Both the position numbers and the translations under genes were made by a program. The notes under the pieces are model-generated. The model saw nothing but the letters and a program-made list of their open reading frames with translations, ran no database searches and was not told the DNA's origin. This document shows, one piece after another, positions 9,104-18,280 of a DNA stretch of 64,000 nucleotides (position 1 is the stretch's first letter; each line of letters opens with the position of its first letter). The DNA is from Verrucomicrobiaceae bacterium (GTDB taxonomy: Bacteria > Verrucomicrobiota > Verrucomicrobiia > Verrucomicrobiales > Verrucomicrobiaceae), in assembly GCA_016795485.1 (NCBI GenBank), contig JAEUHM010000009.1, positions 124,001 through 188,000 on the forward strand, written 5' to 3'.

Positions 9104-9307
9104 CTTTGAGTCACGCCGCAATAGCCACAGCCCAGTTCTTCGCTCAATTGGCACAGGTCGAGAAATACTGCTCATAAGCGCCCGCGCTAAGATTCCAGCC
9201 ATTCACAGCAAAGATTGTCGACGCCAGATTTGATGAGCCTAGTGAGGGCAAGTATTCATCCAGCAGAACGTGCGGCTAGAGGTGAGATGAGTTGATGAAC
9301 TCACGAA

Positions 9308-11326
9308 TCATCTAGGCAGCAACATTTTGGCAGCCTGAACGAAGTTGCGCATGACAGTTCGAACGTTGTCACCGCCGCATTTGCCGCCAGCGATTGCTTT
9401 CTCTTTCCAGTAAGTGGGCGAACGGAGGATTTTGCGCTTGCTGAGCACTTGGAGGCTGTCGGCGGCGGTGGTCGCGGGTTCAAAGTGACGCGCCAAGTTG
9501 TGCAGCATCTCCGCGACGATGGCACCATCGAAGCTGGTTTTTCCGATCCAGTCATCGGCGTTCGTGATGATTTTTCGCTCGGCGAGCAGTTGGAGGTCGA
9601 GCTTGTATTGATCTGCTGCGATGGCTTTTGATTTGGCGATTTCCGGTTTGGGTTCGTTGGGATCGAGAATCGCGCGGCCTGCTTTCAATCGCTCGGCGAG
9701 CATGGGGTAGGCGAGGGCGTGGGGGGTGGTTTTGTTTTGAAGGGACAGGCTCGCGGCGGCTGCAGCGGCTTGGCCCATCTCCATGTAGATGGACTCCATG
9801 CGCATGGAGCTATAGGCGACGTGGGTGGCGGAGACGCAGACGGAGACGAGGAGGTTTTGGCACTGGTTCGGCTGCGGCAGCAGGGAGCGGTAGCTGATGC
9901 CGTAGGGCTTCACGCCACGGAAGAAGTGGCCTTCCCAGACCAGCTCGCCCTGGTCATTCATGAACATGCCGACCTTGTGGGAATCGAGCGCGTAGGAGCC
10001 GACGGCGATGATGTCCTGGATGGGATCGCGAGCAGGAGCGGCGGTCATTTTGCCATCGGCGCCCTTGGTCTTCAGCGGGAAGTTGTTTTCGTTCATCACA
10101 TGCACGCCGATCATACGCCGCGCCTCGCGGACGTAGAGCTGCGTAGGCCAGTGGTCGTTGTCGGTGAACTCGTCTTTGGCGAGTCCCCAGCGGGCGACAT
10201 CCTGGCGGAAGTCTTCGGGCACACGCGGATCATTGCCCAAGAACCAAAAGAAGCCCTGCACATAGCCGCGATGCTCGGCGAGGATGCGCTCGCGCTCGGC
10301 ATAGGATGCCTCGGGCCAGCCGTAACTGCCGGCAATGTAGTCGGTGGAAAAGGTGCCGGCGTTGTTGCTGTCCGTCTTCAGATTCGGCATGGGCACACGA
10401 GTGAAGTAGCCTTTGCCGGGCGTGACACTTTTCTTCCGCTGCATGTCTCGCAGCATGAGTTCGTAGTTCAGCGGGTTGTAGTTGGCCGGTTTCGTGATCG
10501 GCACGCGATTCTCCGGCACGGTGGTGAGGCAGAGGCGGAAATTGTAGGCCTGGAAGCGATGATCCGCCGCGCCGTGCTGGCCGTAGGGCTTGGGTTCGAT
10601 ACGCGGCAGCAGGCCGCTCTTCGGATCGCCCTCTACGAGGTAGGGACTGATTTTGGCGCTGCCGGTTTCGTCGATTTGGACGCCGTTCATCGTTTCGTTG
10701 TGGGTAGCGTTGGCCTCGCGCCCCACAGTGTAAGCCACGCCTGCGGCAGCCATGAGATCGCCTTCATAAGTGGCATCAATGAAGTAGCGCCCACGGATGA
10801 CGAGGCCGCTTTCCATCGTGATGCTGCGGATGACGCCGTCTTCCTTGATCACACCGCCTTTGCCGCGATTCAGCCTTTCGTCACGCAGGATTTTCGCCCC
10901 AGAGTCCGCGAGCCATTTCTCGAAAATCATCCGCGCCACATGCGGCTCGAAAAACCATTGGCATTTCATGTCCTCACGGTAAATCAGGCCGTGCTTCGGC
11001 AAATATTCCGCGCGCGTCTCGCGTGTCCACTTCGTCGGGTCTTCGTAGTGTTTGTAAACGTCCTCAAAAAAGCTGCGGGCCAGTCCACCAACGGTCCAAT
11101 AGACGCCCTTGTCAGATGCGCCAAGGCCACCGGTCATCATGCCGCCGAGAAACTTCTCCGGCACGACGAGGATCACCGAATGCCCCTGCGATGCGGCCTC
11201 ACGCACAGCCGCGATGCCTGAGGAAGTGCCGCCATAGATGACGATGTCAGCGGAAGCTTCCTCAGCAGCCGCAAAAGCCGGAACGAGAACGCATAGAGCG
11301 AGAAGGAGGTGGTGAATCTTGTTCAT
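9308..11326 (-). CDS. Exported FAD-dependent oxidoreductase (PF12831 type)
   Basis: Starting at MNKIHHLLLALCVLVPAFAAAEE gives a clean signal peptide; an in-frame ATG 7 codons upstream (11347) is also possible. The FAD-binding Rossmann motif is VIYGGTSSGIAAVREAASQG, followed by EKFLGGMMTGGLG and a conserved FIDATYEGDLMAAAG segment. These features identify the FAD-dependent oxidoreductase family PF12831, which is common in secreted, often substrate-uncharacterised enzymes of Planctomycetes and Verrucomicrobia. The C-terminal FAD-contacting segment CVSATHVAYSSMRMESIYMEMG is present, so the protein looks complete. It begins directly after the FecR-type gene (stop at 11348), which points to an ECF-FecR-enzyme operon. 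The substrate is unknown. Confidence 0.85.
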   Translation of the reverse strand: MNKIHHLLLALCVLVPAFAAAEEASADIVIYGGTSSGIAAVREAASQGHSVILVVPEKFLGGMMTGGLGASDKGVYWTVGGLARSFFEDVYKHYEDPTKWTRETRAEYLPKHGLIYREDMKCQWFFEPHVARMIFEKWLADSGAKILRDERLNRGKGGVIKEDGVIRSITMESGLVIRGRYFIDATYEGDLMAAAGVAYTVGREANATHNETMNGVQIDETGSAKISPYLVEGDPKSGLLPRIEPKPYGQHGAADHRFQAYNFRLCLTTVPENRVPITKPANYNPLNYELMLRDMQRKKSVTPGKGYFTRVPMPNLKTDSNNAGTFSTDYIAGSYGWPEASYAERERILAEHRGYVQGFFWFLGNDPRVPEDFRQDVARWGLAKDEFTDNDHWPTQLYVREARRMIGVHVMNENNFPLKTKGADGKMTAAPARDPIQDIIAVGSYALDSHKVGMFMNDQGELVWEGHFFRGVKPYGISYRSLLPQPNQCQNLLVSVCVSATHVAYSSMRMESIYMEMGQAAAAAASLSLQNKTTPHALAYPMLAERLKAGRAILDPNEPKPEIAKSKAIAADQYKLDLQLLAERKIITNADDWIGKTSFDGAIVAEMLHNLARHFEPATTAADSLQVLSKRKILRSPTYWKEKAIAGGKCGGDNVRTVMRNFVQAAKMLLPR

Positions 11327-11347: not shown

Positions 11348-12628
11348 TCAAAGTGGCTTGGCCGCGATGCCATACATCCAGAGCATGCGTTGATCGGGAG
11401 TGTCTCGTGGTGAGCCAAGCGTGATGGAGCCCGCCTGTTGCAGCTCGCGCTTCCACACGGCAAAGGGTGCCATGTTGCCCGCGCCTGGGCCGACAGCCAC
11501 AGCATGGCCGCTGTCGAGCTTCGGCGCGTTTTCCAAGCCGATGCGTGCGCCGGTGTCGGTGAAGGTTTCCTCCAGCCAAGTGGGAGCCGCCGTGCGGCTG
11601 TCAAACAGCACATAGAGCACTGCCGGGCGCGACACAGTGATGGTGATGTCGAGTGCCACTTTCGCACGGTCGTTCACAAAGGTCTGCACGAGGTCAGCGT
11701 CGAGCAGCTCGGCAGGCATTCCGGCGGCGGTGAGGCCGTTCCACTCATGCCGCTGGCCCACAAAGGCGCGCGCGTCCTCGCGCAGCCCACCGGAGATGAT
11801 GCGGTAGTAGTTCTTCGCGCCGGGATCACGCAGGTTGTCATGCACGGAGGCGATTACCGAGACTTTGTCATCACCGCGCGTGGACCACGCCGCCGCGCTG
11901 CCGATCGAGGTCACACTCATGATGCGGCTGAGCTGCTGGCGCGCGTCCACACGCACGGCCTCGCCTTCCACCAGCCGCGTCATCGGCCCGCGCTTGGGCT
12001 GGCGATCAAAGACCTCCACCTCGCCCTGAAACACCACCACGTCCGTGTGACCGGACCGCGTCACATCCACGCCAAATTTGGTGCCGAGGTCCACCACCTG
12101 CGCCTGCGCGGTATCGACGATGAAGCCCTTGCCATCGTCACCGACATCCGCCGTGACCTGGCCGAAGGTGACACGCACATGCATCGCATCCACGAACTGC
12201 ATCTCCACCGGCGCGGCGACATCCAGCAGCACGCCCGAGGTCAGCCGCATCTGCACATGACCGATGTCCATTTTCAAATGCCCGAGCCGCACGCGCTGAC
12301 CAGCCTGCCATGTGCCGGAACTCTGCACGATTTCGACTTCCACACCTCGATTCACGGACCAAAGCGCCGTGAGACCTGCCAGCACCACCGCAGCAGCGGC
12401 CGCCAGCACGCGTTTTACTGGTAATCGAGGGATATTCCGCGCCGCGACAGGCTTTCCCTTCACCGCCGACCCTTTCGCAAAACGCAAACAAGCATCCAGC
12501 CGCATCTGCGTCACATACTCCGCGCGCAGGGCTGCATCTGAGCGCAGTCTTTTCGCCAGCTCTTCATGCTGTTCCGAGGTCGCTGTGCCATCAAGCGCCG
12601 CAGCAACAAGGTTGTTAAACTCGTTCAT
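11348..12628 (-). CDS. FecR-type transmembrane regulator with C-terminal beta domain
   Basis: A 426-residue protein. The N-terminal about 70 residues (EQHEELAKRLRSDAALRAEYV) resemble anti-sigma/FecR cytoplasmic regions. One transmembrane helix follows (VLAAAAAVVLAGLTALWSV, about 74-92). The FecR core comes next: GQRVRLGHLKMDIGHVQMRL...VDLGTKFGVDV...VVVFQGEVEVFD...VEGEAVRVDA. The last 150 residues (VALDITITVSRPAVLYVLFDSR...WLEETFTDTG) look like an extra-cytoplasmic beta-sandwich. The gene overlaps the upstream ECF sigma factor by 4 bp (ATGA), so the two are translationally coupled. Inferred role: anti-sigma or sensor partner of that sigma factor. Confidence 0.85.
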   Translation of the reverse strand: MNEFNNLVAAALDGTATSEQHEELAKRLRSDAALRAEYVTQMRLDACLRFAKGSAVKGKPVAARNIPRLPVKRVLAAAAAVVLAGLTALWSVNRGVEVEIVQSSGTWQAGQRVRLGHLKMDIGHVQMRLTSGVLLDVAAPVEMQFVDAMHVRVTFGQVTADVGDDGKGFIVDTAQAQVVDLGTKFGVDVTRSGHTDVVVFQGEVEVFDRQPKRGPMTRLVEGEAVRVDARQQLSRIMSVTSIGSAAAWSTRGDDKVSVIASVHDNLRDPGAKNYYRIISGGLREDARAFVGQRHEWNGLTAAGMPAELLDADLVQTFVNDRAKVALDITITVSRPAVLYVLFDSRTAAPTWLEETFTDTGARIGLENAPKLDSGHAVAVGPGAGNMAPFAVWKRELQQAGSITLGSPRDTPDQRMLWMYGIAAKPL

Positions 12629-13155
12629 GCCAGCCCCTCCTCCGTGTTAGCGCGGCCAATGCACTCCGCCAGCAATTGGCGGATGCGATACAGCAGCGCC
12701 GAAATCGCATTCGCCGCCTTTCCTTCCCTTGCGGCGATGTCATTCACGGCCTCGCCGTGCATGTAGCGGCTCTCCACGAGCGCTCGCTGAGCCAGTGGCA
12801 GTTTTTGCAGACACAGCTCCAGCGCGTGAAGGCCGCCCGGCCCTGCCGACTGCCGCCCATACTCATCCGCGATCTCGCCGAGCAGCGCATCGTCAAAGAC
12901 CAGCCGGTCACGCGACTGCCGCTTTCGATGAGCCAGCACCTCAAAATGCGCCACCCGCAGCGCCCACGGCAAAAATGGCCGCGACGCATCATACTGCACC
13001 ATTTTCTGCCACAGCACGCGGTTTGTCTCCTGCAGCACATCCGCCACCTCAGAAGCCCCCGCCATCATCGTGTGAATCGACCCATACAACGCGCTCTGCG
13101 CCTCCGTGAGGCGCTGAACGAACTGGCTCATCAAATCTGGGTCTGTCTCTGGCAT
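12625..13155 (-). CDS. ECF-family RNA polymerase sigma factor
   Basis: A 176-residue sigma-70 factor with region 2 (LYGSIHTMMAGASEVADVLQETNRVLWQKMVQYDASRPFLPWALRVA) and region 4 (LPLAQRALVESRYMHGEAVNDIAAREGKAANAISALLYRIRQLL). The spacing and wording fit the small ECF group frequent in Verrucomicrobia and Planctomycetes (TIGR02989-like). It is coupled to the FecR-type gene by a 4-bp overlap, with the FAD enzyme downstream. It probably directs transcription of its own operon in response to a surface signal relayed by the FecR protein (inference). Confidence 0.9.
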   Translation of the reverse strand: MPETDPDLMSQFVQRLTEAQSALYGSIHTMMAGASEVADVLQETNRVLWQKMVQYDASRPFLPWALRVAHFEVLAHRKRQSRDRLVFDDALLGEIADEYGRQSAGPGGLHALELCLQKLPLAQRALVESRYMHGEAVNDIAAREGKAANAISALLYRIRQLLAECIGRANTEEGLA

Positions 13156-13216
13156 TCCCCAGTATCAGCCAAGGTTCTTTGAATCTGATGAAAAAGTTTC
13201 CAGAGGGCAGCAAAAT

Positions 13217-14962
13217 CTACTTCAACCGCTCGATCGGAATCACCGCCATCTCGGCGCTGTTCAGATTGCCTTTGCGTCCGCCGTTGTTGGAGAAGCCGAT
13301 GTAGAGCTTCCCATCGTGCTCCGTGGCACATGGATAGCTGAGCGAGGCCTTAGGATTCGACTCGCCGGAACCGCTGTGCTCGGCGTGACGGATGACGAAG
13401 ACCTTGCTGAGCACTTCTTTGCCCGGCTCGCTGATCGCGATGGTCAGCGGAGCACGCCGGCCGCCGTTGTTTGTGGCATTCGTGCACACAAGATAGCGCC
13501 GACCATTGCTCAGCATGCCTGCAGCAGGTTTGCTGGTGGTCATCGGCAGATTGCTCTCGCCCATCGTAGTCCACGTGCGACCATAGTCCGTGCTCTTTGA
13601 GATCAAAGCGAGCGGCTTGCCGCCGTAGCGGGCGATATTGAGCACATTCGGCCCATCCACGATGATCGACGATTCACCCCACATGCGGATGCCTTCATGC
13701 ACCGGGATGCCGATGAAGTCCCATTTCGTGAAATCATCGCCGTGACTGATCGCCACGGCGGCGGGGAAGACACCACGATTGGAATAAGGCCCCGCGCTGA
13801 TGCCGGGCATGATCCAGTTTCCATCGCGCATCTTCACCGGCTCATTCAGCGCCCAGAAGCCGCTTTCGATCACCACACCGTGCTTTACCCACTGCCCGCT
13901 GGCCTCATCAAGCGAATAGGCCCGCGTGTGGATGCGCTCCATTTTGTTGTAGTAGGCACCGTGAAAGGCCCAAAGCTTTCCGGCATGCGAAACGAACACG
14001 CCATGACTCACCGCGAGGTCTTTTTCCTCACCCGCATCGATCACACGCAGCTCGCTCCATGTCCGCCCGCCATCCTCGCTCACGCGATACTGCGCCTGCT
14101 CGGTCACCGTGTTCTCTTCGCCTTGGTTGTGTCCGATGGACGCGTAGAGCCTGCCTTTGTGCCAGCAGAGGCCCACGCCGTGCAGGAAGGTGTATCCATC
14201 GCCCTCCTTGTCCCATTTTTTGATGACGTGAAACTCCACCCCATCGAGCACCGGCAGGTCTTTGGCCTCAGCAAGCTTCTGCGAGGCATCCCAAAGCGGA
14301 AACTCCGCCGTCTTCGGCTTCGGCAGCTCATGCGTGCTCGTCACCGGCTTGAACAATGCCGCGATCTCCTCCGCACTCATCGCCCGTGGCTCGATACGCA
14401 CCTCATCCAGCGCTCCTAGAAAAGTCTGCCGAGCCTTCCCCTCATCAAAAATGCCTCCCAGCGTGATCGGAGCCTCCGTAGCCAGAATCGGCTGTTTGAG
14501 CTTCGTTTCGCCCATCAGCTTGCCATTCAAATAGAGCCTCGCTTTCGCCGATTCGACCACCAAGGCGGCAAAATGCCACGAACCGGCCTTCAGCGGCTCC
14601 GCACATGAAATCGTGCTCCAGCCGTTTTGATGGAGATAGGCCTTCAAATGCACGTCCGGCTCAATTGTTAGCCCCCACTGCCGTTCATTGAGCGAGTAGC
14701 GATTTTTGCCGATGAGCATCTGCTGCTCGCCATTGAGCGCATACGGATTGAACCAAACCGATACTGTAAAAGCCCCGCTCGCGAGCTTTGCACTGTCCTT
14801 CAACTCAATGAGCGAAGCCCCATCCAGCTTCAAACACCCACCAGCAGCCCCCGCAGCCGTTTTGACGACACCACGAGGTATCATCGCATCATCCACCGCG
14901 TCCAAAGACCACGTTTCAGCATGGATGGAGGCGGTGAGTAAAAGAATGGCGAGGGAGCGCAT
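13217..14962 (-). CDS. Exported LamG-sialidase (BNR propeller) protein
   Basis: 581 residues from the ATG at 14962 (MRSLAILLLTASIHA, a signal peptide); a GTG two codons upstream is less likely. Residues about 20-205 form a LamG/concanavalin-like jelly roll (GGCLKLDGASLIELKDS...FTVSVWFNPYAL...ALDEVRIEPRAMS). Residues about 235-580 form a BNR/sialidase-like beta-propeller with Asp boxes SEDGGRTWSEL and STDYGRTWTTM. The fold is that of exo-alpha-sialidases, but I cannot confirm the arginine triad, so it may act on another sugar acid. It lies upstream of the ECF sigma gene on the same strand, separated by about 60 bp. Confidence 0.85.
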   Translation of the reverse strand: MRSLAILLLTASIHAETWSLDAVDDAMIPRGVVKTAAGAAGGCLKLDGASLIELKDSAKLASGAFTVSVWFNPYALNGEQQMLIGKNRYSLNERQWGLTIEPDVHLKAYLHQNGWSTISCAEPLKAGSWHFAALVVESAKARLYLNGKLMGETKLKQPILATEAPITLGGIFDEGKARQTFLGALDEVRIEPRAMSAEEIAALFKPVTSTHELPKPKTAEFPLWDASQKLAEAKDLPVLDGVEFHVIKKWDKEGDGYTFLHGVGLCWHKGRLYASIGHNQGEENTVTEQAQYRVSEDGGRTWSELRVIDAGEEKDLAVSHGVFVSHAGKLWAFHGAYYNKMERIHTRAYSLDEASGQWVKHGVVIESGFWALNEPVKMRDGNWIMPGISAGPYSNRGVFPAAVAISHGDDFTKWDFIGIPVHEGIRMWGESSIIVDGPNVLNIARYGGKPLALISKSTDYGRTWTTMGESNLPMTTSKPAAGMLSNGRRYLVCTNATNNGGRRAPLTIAISEPGKEVLSKVFVIRHAEHSGSGESNPKASLSYPCATEHDGKLYIGFSNNGGRKGNLNSAEMAVIPIERLK

Positions 14963-15161
14963 GCTCACAAAACGCTAGACGGAGCAGTCTCTACGATTTT
15001 CGCACTGATATGATAACAGCGCTCACACCCGCTGGACCATACTTAGCGAAGACTACCGCCTTCCACATGCCGCGAAACAAACATAGAAGTCGCTCGCGGA
15101 TGCATTAGGCGTGGTCGTGGGCGTCCGGTTGCGGCAATGTTGTTTACGGTATCTGTGAAGG

Positions 15162-15677
15162 TCATTCACTCTTCAATAGGTCCATGCTGAGTTCATAACC
15201 ACCAACCTCCGCCACAGGATCAGCCTGAAGGCTTAGCGACAGCGTGGACTCGTTCGAGTTGCCGATGGAGATCATGGCACGCTGCCCGGGTTGGCTGAAC
15301 AAGCTGGGCATCGACAGCATGTCCACGCCGCGAGTGCTCTGCAGCGACTCTTGCAGCCCACGAAACCGCTCGGGGTCGATGGCGCTGTAGTTTTCAAAGT
15401 CGAAATTGTCGGGAAACAGGTCCTTCGCATCCGTATCCGACACGGCGTCATAGGACAAATGCAGCAGCTTGGCCGTCATCTTCACATGCCCCTCAGGAGT
15501 CGTCTCCGGCGTCACGATGGCCATGCCGTTCATGCCGGGAGCAATCTCCCAATACCCCAACACGGCCGATTCACCCGGCTTGAGGCGGATTTTGCCCTTG
15601 GAGGTGATTTGGAGTGGTTTTCGAACTGCGGATGGTTTTTCGGCCTTGGGAGGAGTTGGAGCCGATAGGCTTGTTTG
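15162..15677 (-). pseudogene. 3' part of a membrane-anchored protein gene split by an IS element
   Basis: The frame runs from the IS target duplication to a stop at 15162. Joined to the 5' part at 18156-18280, after removal of the IS and one target duplication, it gives a continuous 210-residue protein. The retained part reads LSAPTPPKAEKPSAVRKP, then KIRLKPGESAVLGYWEIAPG, and ends STRGVDMLSMPSLFSQPGQRAMISIG...ELSMDLLKSE. The segment around TRGVDMLSMPS..SQPGQRA is reminiscent of secretin-like proteins of the PVC group (low confidence). A GTG at 15563 could in principle start a shorter product lacking the membrane anchor. Confidence 0.8.
15670..15677. repeat. Left target-site duplication (CTTGTTTG)
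   Basis: The 8-bp sequence CTTGTTTG directly precedes the left inverted repeat and is repeated exactly after the right one at 18156-18163. IS1595-family elements characteristically generate 8-bp duplications. Confidence 0.95.
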
Positions 15678-15745
15678 GGTGACTATATACTTGACTCACC
15701 TTGATTTGCAGTTGAGCCACGTTGATTCCGCGTGTTTCAAAAACA

Positions 15746-16759
15746 ATGGCAGATCAACAATGGGATAAACTCTGGTTTAAAACCGCTGACATCACAAGTG
15801 CGGTAGTAATTGAAAGCGAAGAACTGAAAGAAGTGGTAACTTCATTCACCGCCAATGTGTTCAGAGTCGGGAGAATTGTGGGATTCCCGGCTTTTCTGGC
15901 GGGCCTTTCGGCGCGCTATCAATCAGCGATAGATTTGGCTCGCCTTGAAGAACTTGGCAGGTTGTTCCTGTCTGAGCCGGAGAGCAAAGACGTGGAATTA
16001 CTTAACAGACTAAGGGAGCGCAAGGAGCTTCACATCAAAAATTCCATGATCGCAGATATTGAGCAAAACAAAATGGGGGATTTTTTGCGTCAAGGTGGAG
16101 ATTTGTTTAAAGAGATAATGAGTCTCTACGACACCGATGAAGACGCCAAGTCAATTTTCAACTCACTGATTTTGTCAGCTTGGACAACAATGGAAACCAT
16201 GCTTGGAGACTTGTGGGAGACATCTGTTAATGTTCGCCCTACTCATTTGTCGGTGATGGACGGTAAAAGGCAGGCTACCAAAAAATCCAGGGCCGATGAC
16301 GATGATGGCGAGCAAATCGACACAAAAAGCATTCCACTAAAAGATGTCTATCGGCACAATCTGGACCTGTCTAAGTCGCTAGGAACTATTTTGAAAGGCA
16401 ACCTCAAGTTTGTGAACCTTGGATCAGTGGTGAAAGCCTACCTTCAATCCTTCTACACTGATGCCGACGAGATTCACAAACTAATCCAAGAAGAGTCTTT
16501 GCTAGCTCTGTTCATTATGCGCAATGCTATCGTGCACAAAGCAGGGAAAGTGGACGTCAAGTTTATGTCTGAGCGAGGAAGGGCGAAGGTGGCACTCGCC
16601 AAATGGCAAGGATTGACATTGCACGATTCCATAGAGATTGACGGGAACGATGTGCGTGGTTTAATTGAGCCAGCGTTCAAGACGGGCGCGACATTGATTG
16701 TTGAAGTAGATAAATGGATCAAGAATCATCCAGAGCCACGGAGCCTTTATTTCCTCTAG
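15746..16759 (+). CDS. IS passenger: HEPN-domain RNase-like protein
   Basis: 337 residues from ATG at 15746; a TTG 8 codons upstream is in frame but weaker. The C-terminal half (about 135-290) is helical and carries the HEPN signature R-N-x3-H: FIMRNAIVHKAGKVD, with R259 and H264. An earlier helix, FNSLILSAWTTMETMLGDLWE, is typical of the MAE_28990/RiboL-PSP-type HEPN group. HEPN proteins with this R-x4-6-H motif are metal-independent RNases used in toxin-antitoxin and anti-phage systems (family knowledge). The N-terminal 130 residues are not recognised. The neighbouring zinc-ribbon gene overlaps its 3' end by 46 bp, so the two are probably translated together. Role in the IS (addiction, defence or regulation) is inference. 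Confidence 0.75.
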   Translation: MADQQWDKLWFKTADITSAVVIESEELKEVVTSFTANVFRVGRIVGFPAFLAGLSARYQSAIDLARLEELGRLFLSEPESKDVELLNRLRERKELHIKNSMIADIEQNKMGDFLRQGGDLFKEIMSLYDTDEDAKSIFNSLILSAWTTMETMLGDLWETSVNVRPTHLSVMDGKRQATKKSRADDDDGEQIDTKSIPLKDVYRHNLDLSKSLGTILKGNLKFVNLGSVVKAYLQSFYTDADEIHKLIQEESLLALFIMRNAIVHKAGKVDVKFMSERGRAKVALAKWQGLTLHDSIEIDGNDVRGLIEPAFKTGATLIVEVDKWIKNHPEPRSLYFL

Positions 16760-16920
16760 AAGAGCGTTGCTACTTCTGTCGCGGAGTTGGACGCGAAGAC
16801 ACCATTGAGGGAGAATGGGTTTGTGACGCCTGCAATGGTTCTGGAATGATGCCAACAGAGTTAGGCCAACGCATCCTAGCGTTGGTTGCTCGACACGCTA
16901 GCGCGATACGGGTTTCTTGA
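16714..16920 (+). CDS. IS passenger: small zinc-ribbon protein
   Basis: A 68-residue protein overlapping the HEPN gene by 46 bp in another frame. It carries two CxxCxG-type knuckles, CYFCRGVG and CDACNGSG, 13 residues apart, like half of a DnaJ zinc finger, followed by a helix (LGQRILALVARHA). The overlap implies coupled translation with the HEPN protein. It could be a partner or antitoxin of that protein (inference). Its 3' end overlaps the convergent 49-residue gene by 23 bp. Confidence 0.6.
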   Translation: MDQESSRATEPLFPLEERCYFCRGVGREDTIEGEWVCDACNGSGMMPTELGQRILALVARHASAIRVS

Positions 16921-17047
16921 CTGCGCGCCTCGTCTGATACTCCGCTTCCCTCTGGTCAATCTCCTTTTTCGGCACAGAAAGCACCTTCTTGGCGAACGCT
17001 TGGAACTTCTCAAACGGTCGCGGTTCTGTCTTGGTTTTGACGCTCAT
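16898..17047 (-). CDS. IS passenger: 49-residue basic protein
   Basis: Starting at ATG 17047 (MSVKTKTEPRPFEKFQAFAKKVLSVPKKEIDQREAEYQTRR) gives 49 residues; an upstream start at 17083 adds 12 residues of little character. The FxKFxxFAKKVLSVPKxEI pattern resembles short antitoxin-like proteins that accompany toxin genes. It lies just downstream of the transposase on the same strand and converges on the zinc-ribbon gene. Function unknown; an antitoxin against the HEPN protein is one possibility. Confidence 0.55.
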   Translation of the reverse strand: MSVKTKTEPRPFEKFQAFAKKVLSVPKKEIDQREAEYQTRRAVKKPVSR

Positions 17048-17121
17048 GAGTAGAAGTGTGCCACAAGCGGAAGCATAGGCCAAGGCGTTATTTCTTTCGT
17101 CGTCTCCCGCGTTTGTCCTGC

Positions 17122-18108
17122 TTATGCCGGAAGATAGTCGTTAGGTTCTCCCTCTCCGATGAGTTTGGCATACCGGAGCCCCTTGCCTACGATGCCCATG
17201 ATGCCTTTGAGAAAGCGGCCTTGATCATCGTCTTTCCGCTCATTGAACCGGAAAGCCTGTTCGTCCAGGTAACGGAAAAGGTGGAAGGGAGCAGGGCAAA
17301 CGTATGTGCCTTTGATCATCCGCTTGAGCAGACACCAGAAGTTTTCCAAGCCGTTCGTATGAACGTTGCCCTTCACATAGGTAACAGCGTGATCAACGAC
17401 TTGATGCACAAAGTCATTCTCCAAGCCCTGATACGATTTGAGAGCGTCCGTATGAACTTCTGAGCCTTTGAGCACATACTCTTTCACGTTGGCTTGAACC
17501 TCGGGCTTCTTAGTCGTCTTGAGCACCTTCAGCTTCACACGTGATGCTTTGTCACGCGTGCCACGCTCAAGCAGCCCCTGCACGGCAGTCATGGCCACGC
17601 CGCCCGTTGCATGTCCGTAGACGGCTTCACGCTTAGCTTTCTGTTTGGCGTTCATCGAACGTGCCTTGGCTCCGATGTAGGTTTCATCTGCTTCTACGTT
17701 GCCTTCCATCTTGGTAATCGACCCATCTTGCAGGGCGAGCCTGATACGATGCAGCATGTGCCAAGCACTCTTCTGTGTCACTCCAATGGCCCTGGCAAGC
17801 TCACACGAACTGATGCCATTCTTTGCGTTCACGATCATCCAGAAGGCAGGGAACCACTTGTCATATCCAAGAGCGCTATCTTCAAAGATCGTGCCGACTT
17901 TGGCGCTGAACTGCTTCTTGCAGTCCAGGCACTTCCAGACCTTACGAGTCGAAAGGAACGAAACACGATCACATCCGCACTTGGCACAGGTAACGTTGCC
18001 ATCAGGCCAACGGAGCGACTTCATGAAAGCAAAGGCTTTGTCAGGATCGGAGAAGTAGCGAATCGCTTCGGTAAGAGTCTCAGGGAAGGTGTTTTGGTCG
18101 TCGTTCAT
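17122..18108 (-). CDS. IS1595-family (ISXO2-like) transposase
   Basis: 328 residues. The N-terminal zinc ribbon is C41-x2-C44...C60-x2-C63 (CAKCGCDRVSF...KCLDCKKQF), followed by a helix-turn-helix-like stretch (SSCELARAIGVTQKSAWHMLHRI). The DDE catalytic domain has D141 in EADETYIGAK, D221 in VHTDALKSYQGL and E255 in HTNGLENFWCLLKR. This order is the hallmark of IS1595/ISXO2 transposases. The gene is full length and lies just inside the right inverted repeat. Its start follows only 6 bases after a good -10 box. Confidence 0.97.
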   Translation of the reverse strand: MNDDQNTFPETLTEAIRYFSDPDKAFAFMKSLRWPDGNVTCAKCGCDRVSFLSTRKVWKCLDCKKQFSAKVGTIFEDSALGYDKWFPAFWMIVNAKNGISSCELARAIGVTQKSAWHMLHRIRLALQDGSITKMEGNVEADETYIGAKARSMNAKQKAKREAVYGHATGGVAMTAVQGLLERGTRDKASRVKLKVLKTTKKPEVQANVKEYVLKGSEVHTDALKSYQGLENDFVHQVVDHAVTYVKGNVHTNGLENFWCLLKRMIKGTYVCPAPFHLFRYLDEQAFRFNERKDDDQGRFLKGIMGIVGKGLRYAKLIGEGEPNDYLPA

Positions 18109-18114
18109 GCAACC

Positions 18115-18142
18115 ATTCTACCTCACTTCCTGGGTGAGTCAA
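18115..18142 (-). promoter_or_regulatory. Transposase promoter partly inside the right inverted repeat
   Basis: On the minus strand TTGACT (18142-18137, inside the inverted repeat) and TAGAAT (18120-18115) are 16 bp apart and each match the sigma-70 consensus at 5 of 6 positions. The transposase ATG begins 6 bases later, so little or no leader is expected. Placing the -35 box in the terminal repeat is a known way for transposase binding to repress its own gene. Confidence 0.6.
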
Positions 18143-18155
18143 GTATATAGTCACC

Positions 18156-18163
18156 CTTGTTTG
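18156..18163. repeat. Right target-site duplication (CTTGTTTG)
   Basis: An exact copy of the 8 bp at 15670-15677, directly adjoining the outer end of the right inverted repeat. Confidence 0.95.
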
Positions 18164-18280
18164 GGGCGCTGTCGCGACTTTGGAAGCGGAAACCGGCTCT
18201 TTCGGCTGAAAAGCCGCCCGCATGAGCCACAACGCGATGAGGCAGATGACGATGCAGAGGAGGACGATGGAGCGGCGCAT
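18156..18280 (-). pseudogene. 5' part of the membrane-anchored gene split by the IS
   Basis: From ATG at 18280 the frame reads MRRSIVLLCIVICLIALWLM, a signal-anchor helix, then a Lys/Pro/Ala linker (FQPKEPVSASKVATAPQT), and enters the IS at 18155. The 3' part is at 15162-15677. Excision of the IS and one target duplication restores the frame exactly (..APQT-SLSAPT..), so the insertion alone has inactivated the gene. Confidence 0.85.

Follow-up and report, generated by a model that had tools for sequence, protein, structure and literature searches.

The whole stretch of DNA considered here, referred to as the window (64,000 nt of a Verrucomicrobiaceae contig), contains at positions 15678-18155 an IS1595-family element, complete and 2478 bp long, that has an intact transposase and interrupts a host gene. 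The features of the locus are the following:

15162-15677, minus strand: 3' part of the interrupted host gene (rejoined frame of about 210 aa from ATG)
15670-15677: left copy of the target duplication, CTTGTTTG, 8 bp
15678-15700, plus strand: left terminal inverted repeat, GGTGACTATATACTTGACTCACC, which fits the consensus GGCAATAATATACTTGACTCACCA of 128 related ends
15746-16759, plus strand: gene of a predicted HEPN-type RNase-like protein, 337 aa from ATG, with the motif RNAIVH and homologues in six other IS1595 elements
16714-16920, plus strand: gene of a two-knuckle CxxCxGxG zinc protein of 68 aa (Pfam Anti-TRAP, PF15777)
16898-17047, minus strand: gene of a small basic protein of 49 aa, a conserved accessory gene of this IS1595 clade (consensus AFxxFRxLAKKVxSVPKxEIDxRE)
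17122-18108, minus strand: gene of the IS1595-family DDE transposase, 328 aa, with Pfam and NCBIfam profile matches
18115-18142, minus strand: promoter-like site of the transposase gene, TTGACT-16 nt-TAGAAT, with TTGACT within the right terminal repeat
18133-18155, minus strand: right terminal inverted repeat, the perfect 23-bp partner of the left one
18156-18163: right copy of the target duplication, CTTGTTTG
18164-18280, minus strand: 5' part of the host gene, with an N-terminal membrane or signal segment (rejoined frame)

The terminal repeats begin with GG and the target duplication is of 8 bp, both traits of the IS1595 family, and the transposase matches the Pfam profiles DDE_Tnp_IS1595 (1.8e-33) and Zn_ribbon_IS1595 (4.3e-13) as well as the NCBIfam profile transpos_IS1595 (7e-48). 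In a preliminary description of this DNA the element had been called complete, with perfect 23-bp repeats, a full-length DDE transposase and 8-bp duplications, all of which were confirmed; passenger DNA, put there at more than a third of the element, makes up about half of it (1.3 of 2.48 kb). The inverted-repeat match runs one base further on each side, either by chance or as a part of the target sequence. Excision of the element in silico with one copy of CTTGTTTG leaves a single open host frame of 226 codons, and more than one relative has an intact homologue of the interrupted gene, that of G657 being element-free, full-length and 65% identical. The restored frame, the intact homologue lacking the element and the repetition of the gene order in independent elements indicate that the structure is not a product of chance. 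The GC content of the element is 49% (46% in the HEPN gene), lower than the 61% around it, as expected for a newcomer, and the single copy of the element in the 6.5-Mb genome gives no sign of recent activity. The Rfam search gave no match in the window, and a terminator scan of the element found none. Beside the element, at 11348-14968, lie ORFs that we take to encode a FecR-like (11348-12628), a sigma-factor-like (12625-13155) and a LamG/sialidase-like protein (13217-14968).

The promoter-like site of the transposase gene is not confined to this element. The terminal-repeat consensus of related ends contains TTGAC, and at the transposase-side ends a -10-like hexamer is found at 16-18 nt, much more frequently than in shuffles (best-match score 4.56 versus 2.51), so that the -35 box of the transposase gene seems to come from the ends. 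At the distal end the pattern is weaker, and it is absent there in the window element.

The transposase alignment was used to scan 85,000 species genomes for related elements, which yielded 80 loci. Those delimited by terminal repeats and a 7- or 8-bp duplication comprise 64 distinct elements, the window element and its first relatives included, drawn from many phyla and ranging in size from 1859 to 5899 bp (median 2737). All of them carry cargo inside the terminal repeats, and none is cargo-free. Two loci, L079 and L087, were excluded because of doubtful ends, and L022 and L009 are one and the same locus. Beyond the 64, four further HEPN-bearing elements were considered: L033 and L048, with visible matching terminal repeats (the duplication of L048 is of 9 bp, and an inverted flank encloses L033), together with L100 and L101, counted as HEPN elements without mapped ends. 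Both L033 (5880-6000, 8430-8560) and L048 (5860-5980, 8440-8640) are flanked by palindromes, as if inserted in REP-like repeats. The target duplications of the 64 elements show a palindromic, CTAATTAG-like preference, C being favoured at position 1 and G at position 8.

The HEPN gene starts 45 bp from the left terminal repeat. Its product contains at residues 259-264, as reported in the preliminary description, the R-x4-H motif RNAIVH (R259-N260-x3-H264). Homologues, 21-33% identical to the window protein, bring to seven the IS1595 elements carrying such a gene (window, L009, L020, L033, L048, L100 and L101). In 387 genomes of the phylum the single other homologue (25% identity) is located on a different IS1595 element that has ends and a duplication of its own, and in 384 sampled genomes of the class all strong matches are on IS1595 elements, with one weak match (4e-4, L102) being chromosomal. 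None was found in plasmids or in viral contigs. All seven homologues retain the three residues of RN-x3-H and thereby conform to the superfamily pattern Rx4-6H with a polar residue, here N, after R. The alignment of the four full-length homologues has just 23 invariant columns, among them R, N and H, E150, DLW and a downstream D..F. The window protein has no family match in Pfam, NCBIfam or PADLOC, and the Pfam matches of the L033 and L048 homologues are at chance level only. Its structure model is all-helical and of low confidence (pLDDT 54); the fold search with this poor model returned Csm6 (6tug, Z 7.0) and MtlR (3brj, Z 5.2) among unrelated helical bundles, none of which stands out. Searching the sequences of solved structures with the protein or its profile did not retrieve a HEPN entry, and the internalin matches obtained there were rejected as chance. 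The motif, rather than the structure model, is what points to a HEPN-type protein, predicted to be a metal-independent RNase with R259, N260 and H264 as the putative catalytic residues. The HEPN genes of L020, L100 and L101, three of the seven, are frame-broken, while the transposase and basic genes of these elements are still open; the cargo may be dispensable or costly, as with a decaying costly toxin, or the breaks may be assembly errors.

The zinc gene begins inside the HEPN gene, and the overlap, already noted in the preliminary description, amounts to 46 bp; judged from it, the two genes are presumably co-transcribed. The CxxCxGxG motif occurs twice in the protein, which scores 38.9 bits against Anti-TRAP PF15777 (curated cut-off 32), the counterparts in L048 and L033 scoring 49.5 and 33.2 bits, respectively, and the profile of the three sequences matches anti-TRAP structures at 1e-6. 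The gene accompanies four of the seven HEPN genes (window, L033, L048 and L101). In the HEPN tree these four genes all fall on the same side (support 89/92, with long branches), and the window element and L048, both with the pair, are far apart in the transposase tree. The gene order in L033 and L101 is identical to that in the window: transposase, basic gene, zinc gene, HEPN gene. In the 384 genomes of the class, strong matches to the zinc profile are confined to two HEPN-bearing IS1595 elements. HEPN and zinc genes are thus two small adjacent genes inherited together, as in type II toxin-antitoxin systems, and their products likely form a functional pair. The zinc protein could be an antitoxin, a sensor or an assembly partner; were it an antitoxin, the three HEPN elements from which it is missing would have to use something else. 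Its genomic context argues for a role other than TRAP inhibition.

The third small gene behaves differently. The basic protein was found in 59 of the 64 delimited elements (E below 1e-5), whatever their cargo (HEPN, DUF3800, RelA/SpoT, methyltransferase or ATPase), and its profile gave one match in 534 kb of flanks, the control that counts most since the profile was trained on the same elements. The strong matches in the 387 genomes of the phylum are exactly the five elements known from the transposase search; as all five belong to the training set, this demonstrates confinement to the elements and not new finds. In 14 pairs of elements with transposases at least 70% identical the basic protein tracks the transposase, whereas cargo is common to three pairs only; its mean similarity score is 117 at transposase identities of at least 70% versus 38 at 50-60%. 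In the 59 elements the gene adjoins the 3' end of the transposase gene in 36 and that of the cargo in 32, its place and strand being variable, and in L048 it is located at the opposite end of the element. These comparisons mark it as belonging to the backbone of the IS1595 clade and do not support the role of antitoxin of the HEPN cassette that the preliminary description had suggested for it. Our best guess is that its product is a nucleic-acid-binding regulator of transposition. Of the three genes of which the preliminary description asked whether they travel with the same transposase, the HEPN gene (seven elements) and the zinc gene (four) do recur with related transposases, and the basic gene follows the transposase irrespective of cargo. 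The search for other copies, proposed in the same description, revealed the one copy in the own genome and related elements elsewhere with HEPN and zinc genes; the refuting condition set there, cargo genes missing from related copies, does not hold for the HEPN gene in seven elements and for the zinc gene in four.

The cargo of the sister elements is diverse. DUF3800 is the commonest (10 elements: L041, L046, L052, L043, L055, L050, L091, L060, L056 and, as a fragment, L047), followed by a second HEPN-like family, HEPN2 (8), the family of the window protein, HEPN1 (7), RelA/SpoT-domain proteins forming one cluster of four (L030, L011, L054 and L069), and HicAB (2). The HicA/HicB-like pair is accompanied by a second toxin-like gene in both cases, HEPN in L009 (G013:C1, 4626-6622) and RelA/SpoT in L011 (G166, 9175-10884). 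Also carried are AriA/AbiL-like ATPases (L051, L061), methyltransferases (L069, L080) and PDC-S05 (L047); four cargo proteins match PF04607 and four the PADLOC candidate PDC-S33, and an MmeI-like protein is, from its length, the 945-aa cargo of L072. About one third of the elements have recognised toxin- or defence-like genes, and many others carry orphans; these examples give the impression of a defence-rich cargo. The cargo changes even between nearly identical transposases: those of L011 and L020 are 87% identical, with RelA/SpoT in the one and HEPN in the other. Across the transposase tree the cargo labels are scattered (24 changes versus 27.2 with shuffled labels).

The uncharacterised HEPN2 family (L016, L032, L034, L063, L072, L073, L081 and L090) has the motif AWRNxVMH, and in seven of its eight members R-x4-H lies near the C-terminus. 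Profile comparison of HEPN1 and HEPN2 detected no relationship apart from the RN..H motif. The motif region of the HEPN2 model (pLDDT 74) matches 2q00 (Z 11.2, 116 residues, 2.8 A), RnlA (6y2p, Z 10.2) and, with Z 9.0, 4nqf, an entry bearing the title HEPN domain protein. Among these, 2q00 is listed as a HEPN structure in the survey in which the H of the motif is given as essential for activity (PMC3710099). Since helical bundles often reach such middling Z values, the matches are support rather than proof for the C-terminal domain of HEPN2 as a predicted HEPN-like domain. HEPN-like RNases have probably been chosen as cargo repeatedly.

Taken together, the locus is probably a transporter IS in which a fixed backbone moves an exchangeable cargo, here a HEPN RNase and its zinc partner causing growth arrest or addiction. 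The backbone would consist of the ends of about 24 bp with the transposase -35 box, the DDE transposase and the small basic accessory protein, the latter presumably acting in transposition by nucleic-acid binding or regulation. The cassette would comprise the two overlapping genes of the HEPN-type RNase and of the anti-TRAP/DnaJ-like zinc-knuckle protein, which most likely restrains or triggers the RNase; the benefit may be growth arrest upon phage infection or addiction to the element, the passenger thereby paying for the upkeep of the transposon. The toxin-antitoxin or defence cassette riding on an IS, as first proposed, survives as a toxin-like two-gene cassette of HEPN and zinc genes without the basic protein as its antitoxin. 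A single toxin-antitoxin operon of all three genes, in which the basic protein would be the antitoxin, is suggested by the small size and positive charge of this protein, its tail-to-tail position relative to the cassette and the 32 of 59 elements in which its gene abuts the 3' end of a larger cargo gene; its occurrence with unrelated cargo in 59 of 64 elements and its tracking of the transposase instead of the cargo make such an operon very improbable, and the location of its gene on the strand opposite to the HEPN gene places it outside the HEPN operon.

The cargo might also regulate the element itself, with the HEPN and zinc proteins controlling transposase mRNA or transposition and not protecting the cell. 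Anti-TRAP knuckle proteins are regulators in Bacillus, and the genes are compactly packed and always within the ends; a needed regulator, however, should not be exchanged between nearly identical transposases, and methyltransferase, MmeI and RelA/SpoT genes are found among the sister cargos, so that this explanation is decidedly doubtful. Somewhat less remote, though still unlikely, is a benign cargo engaged in RNA processing or other housekeeping, the HEPN-type conservation reflecting RNA binding only. Many sister cargos are uncharacterised, HEPN activity is known here as a sequence prediction only, and some HEPN domains, e.g., that of MtlR, are non-catalytic RNA binders (PMC3710099). Against it, R, N and H are all retained near 25% identity, while the motif tends to be lost from HEPN families without catalytic activity (PMC3710099), and toxin- or defence-like genes are numerous among the sister cargos. 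The HicAB-, RelA/SpoT-, AriA/AbiL-, methyltransferase- and MmeI-like genes of the sister elements make a toxin or defence cargo plausible. A bolder version of the transporter reading, which we advance tentatively, is that of one clade dedicated to carrying single toxin or defence genes through Verrucomicrobiota, Acidobacteriota, Planctomycetota, Chloroflexota, Nitrospirota, Myxococcota and other phyla, in which the basic protein would be a part of the transposition machinery that makes the cargo tolerable or exchangeable and the HEPN-zinc pair a novel type of toxin/partner module spread almost only there.

Transporter IS of the IS1595 family were reportedly described by Siguier et al. in 2009, an example being ISNha5 with a regulator gene. 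That IS1595 elements with passengers are known, as the preliminary description had said, is borne out by two papers, where they form the established category of transporter IS (PMC3129680, PMC11891212). The window element resembles them in its IS1595 transposase, GG-starting ends, 8-bp duplications and passengers unrelated to transposition inside the ends; it differs in the HEPN-zinc cargo and the clade-wide basic protein, neither of which those papers describe. Members of the Tn3 family likewise combine a transposon with toxin-antitoxin pairs acquired repeatedly and independently, including HEPN/MNT in TnSod9 (PMC7157771), but their transposase is of another family, the partner there is MNT instead of a zinc knuckle, and the window element has no resolvase gene. 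In Tn7-like transposons a conserved transposition module is combined with changing cargo that includes defence genes (PMC8649781), whereas here there is one small DDE transposase, typically one cargo gene or operon, and a total of 1.9-5.9 kb. The HEPN superfamily RNases, HEPN/MNT in particular (PMC3710099), share R-N-x3-H, the polar residue after R and a toxin-like context with the window protein, which differs by matching no library family, by the lack of an MNT gene and by its zinc-knuckle partner. With Anti-TRAP/RtpA (PF15777) the zinc protein shares the paired CxxC knuckles; the additional C-terminal segment PTxxGxxIlxLi, the neighbouring HEPN gene and the lack of a known TRAP context set it apart.

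Searches of the literature for IS1595 together with HEPN or DUF3800 retrieved nothing relevant, and neither the HEPN-zinc pair nor the conserved basic gene turned up in a search that covered little of the subscription literature. As far as found, this pair, the accessory gene shared throughout the clade and the exchange of toxin- or defence-like cargo are new. Cargo of toxin-antitoxin or defence genes is on record for Tn3, Tn7 and large elements, and in many phyla of soil and water a transposon no more than roughly double the length of a plain IS seems to carry the like. Its constant accessory gene and single variable cargo slot make it a simple system for studying cargo acquisition and the role of the small protein, and its uncharacterised cargo genes (DUF3800, the two HEPN-like families and many orphans) are candidate toxins or defence genes. 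Two more distant IS1595 elements, with about 35% transposase identity, were encountered on plasmids of Roseomonas (L114, 3918-6521) and Methylobacterium (L115, 693-4105). They carry a PIN/VapC toxin, an uncharacterised protein of 266-288 aa and a small protein of 61-62 aa, this last being possibly the basic protein's diverged counterpart.
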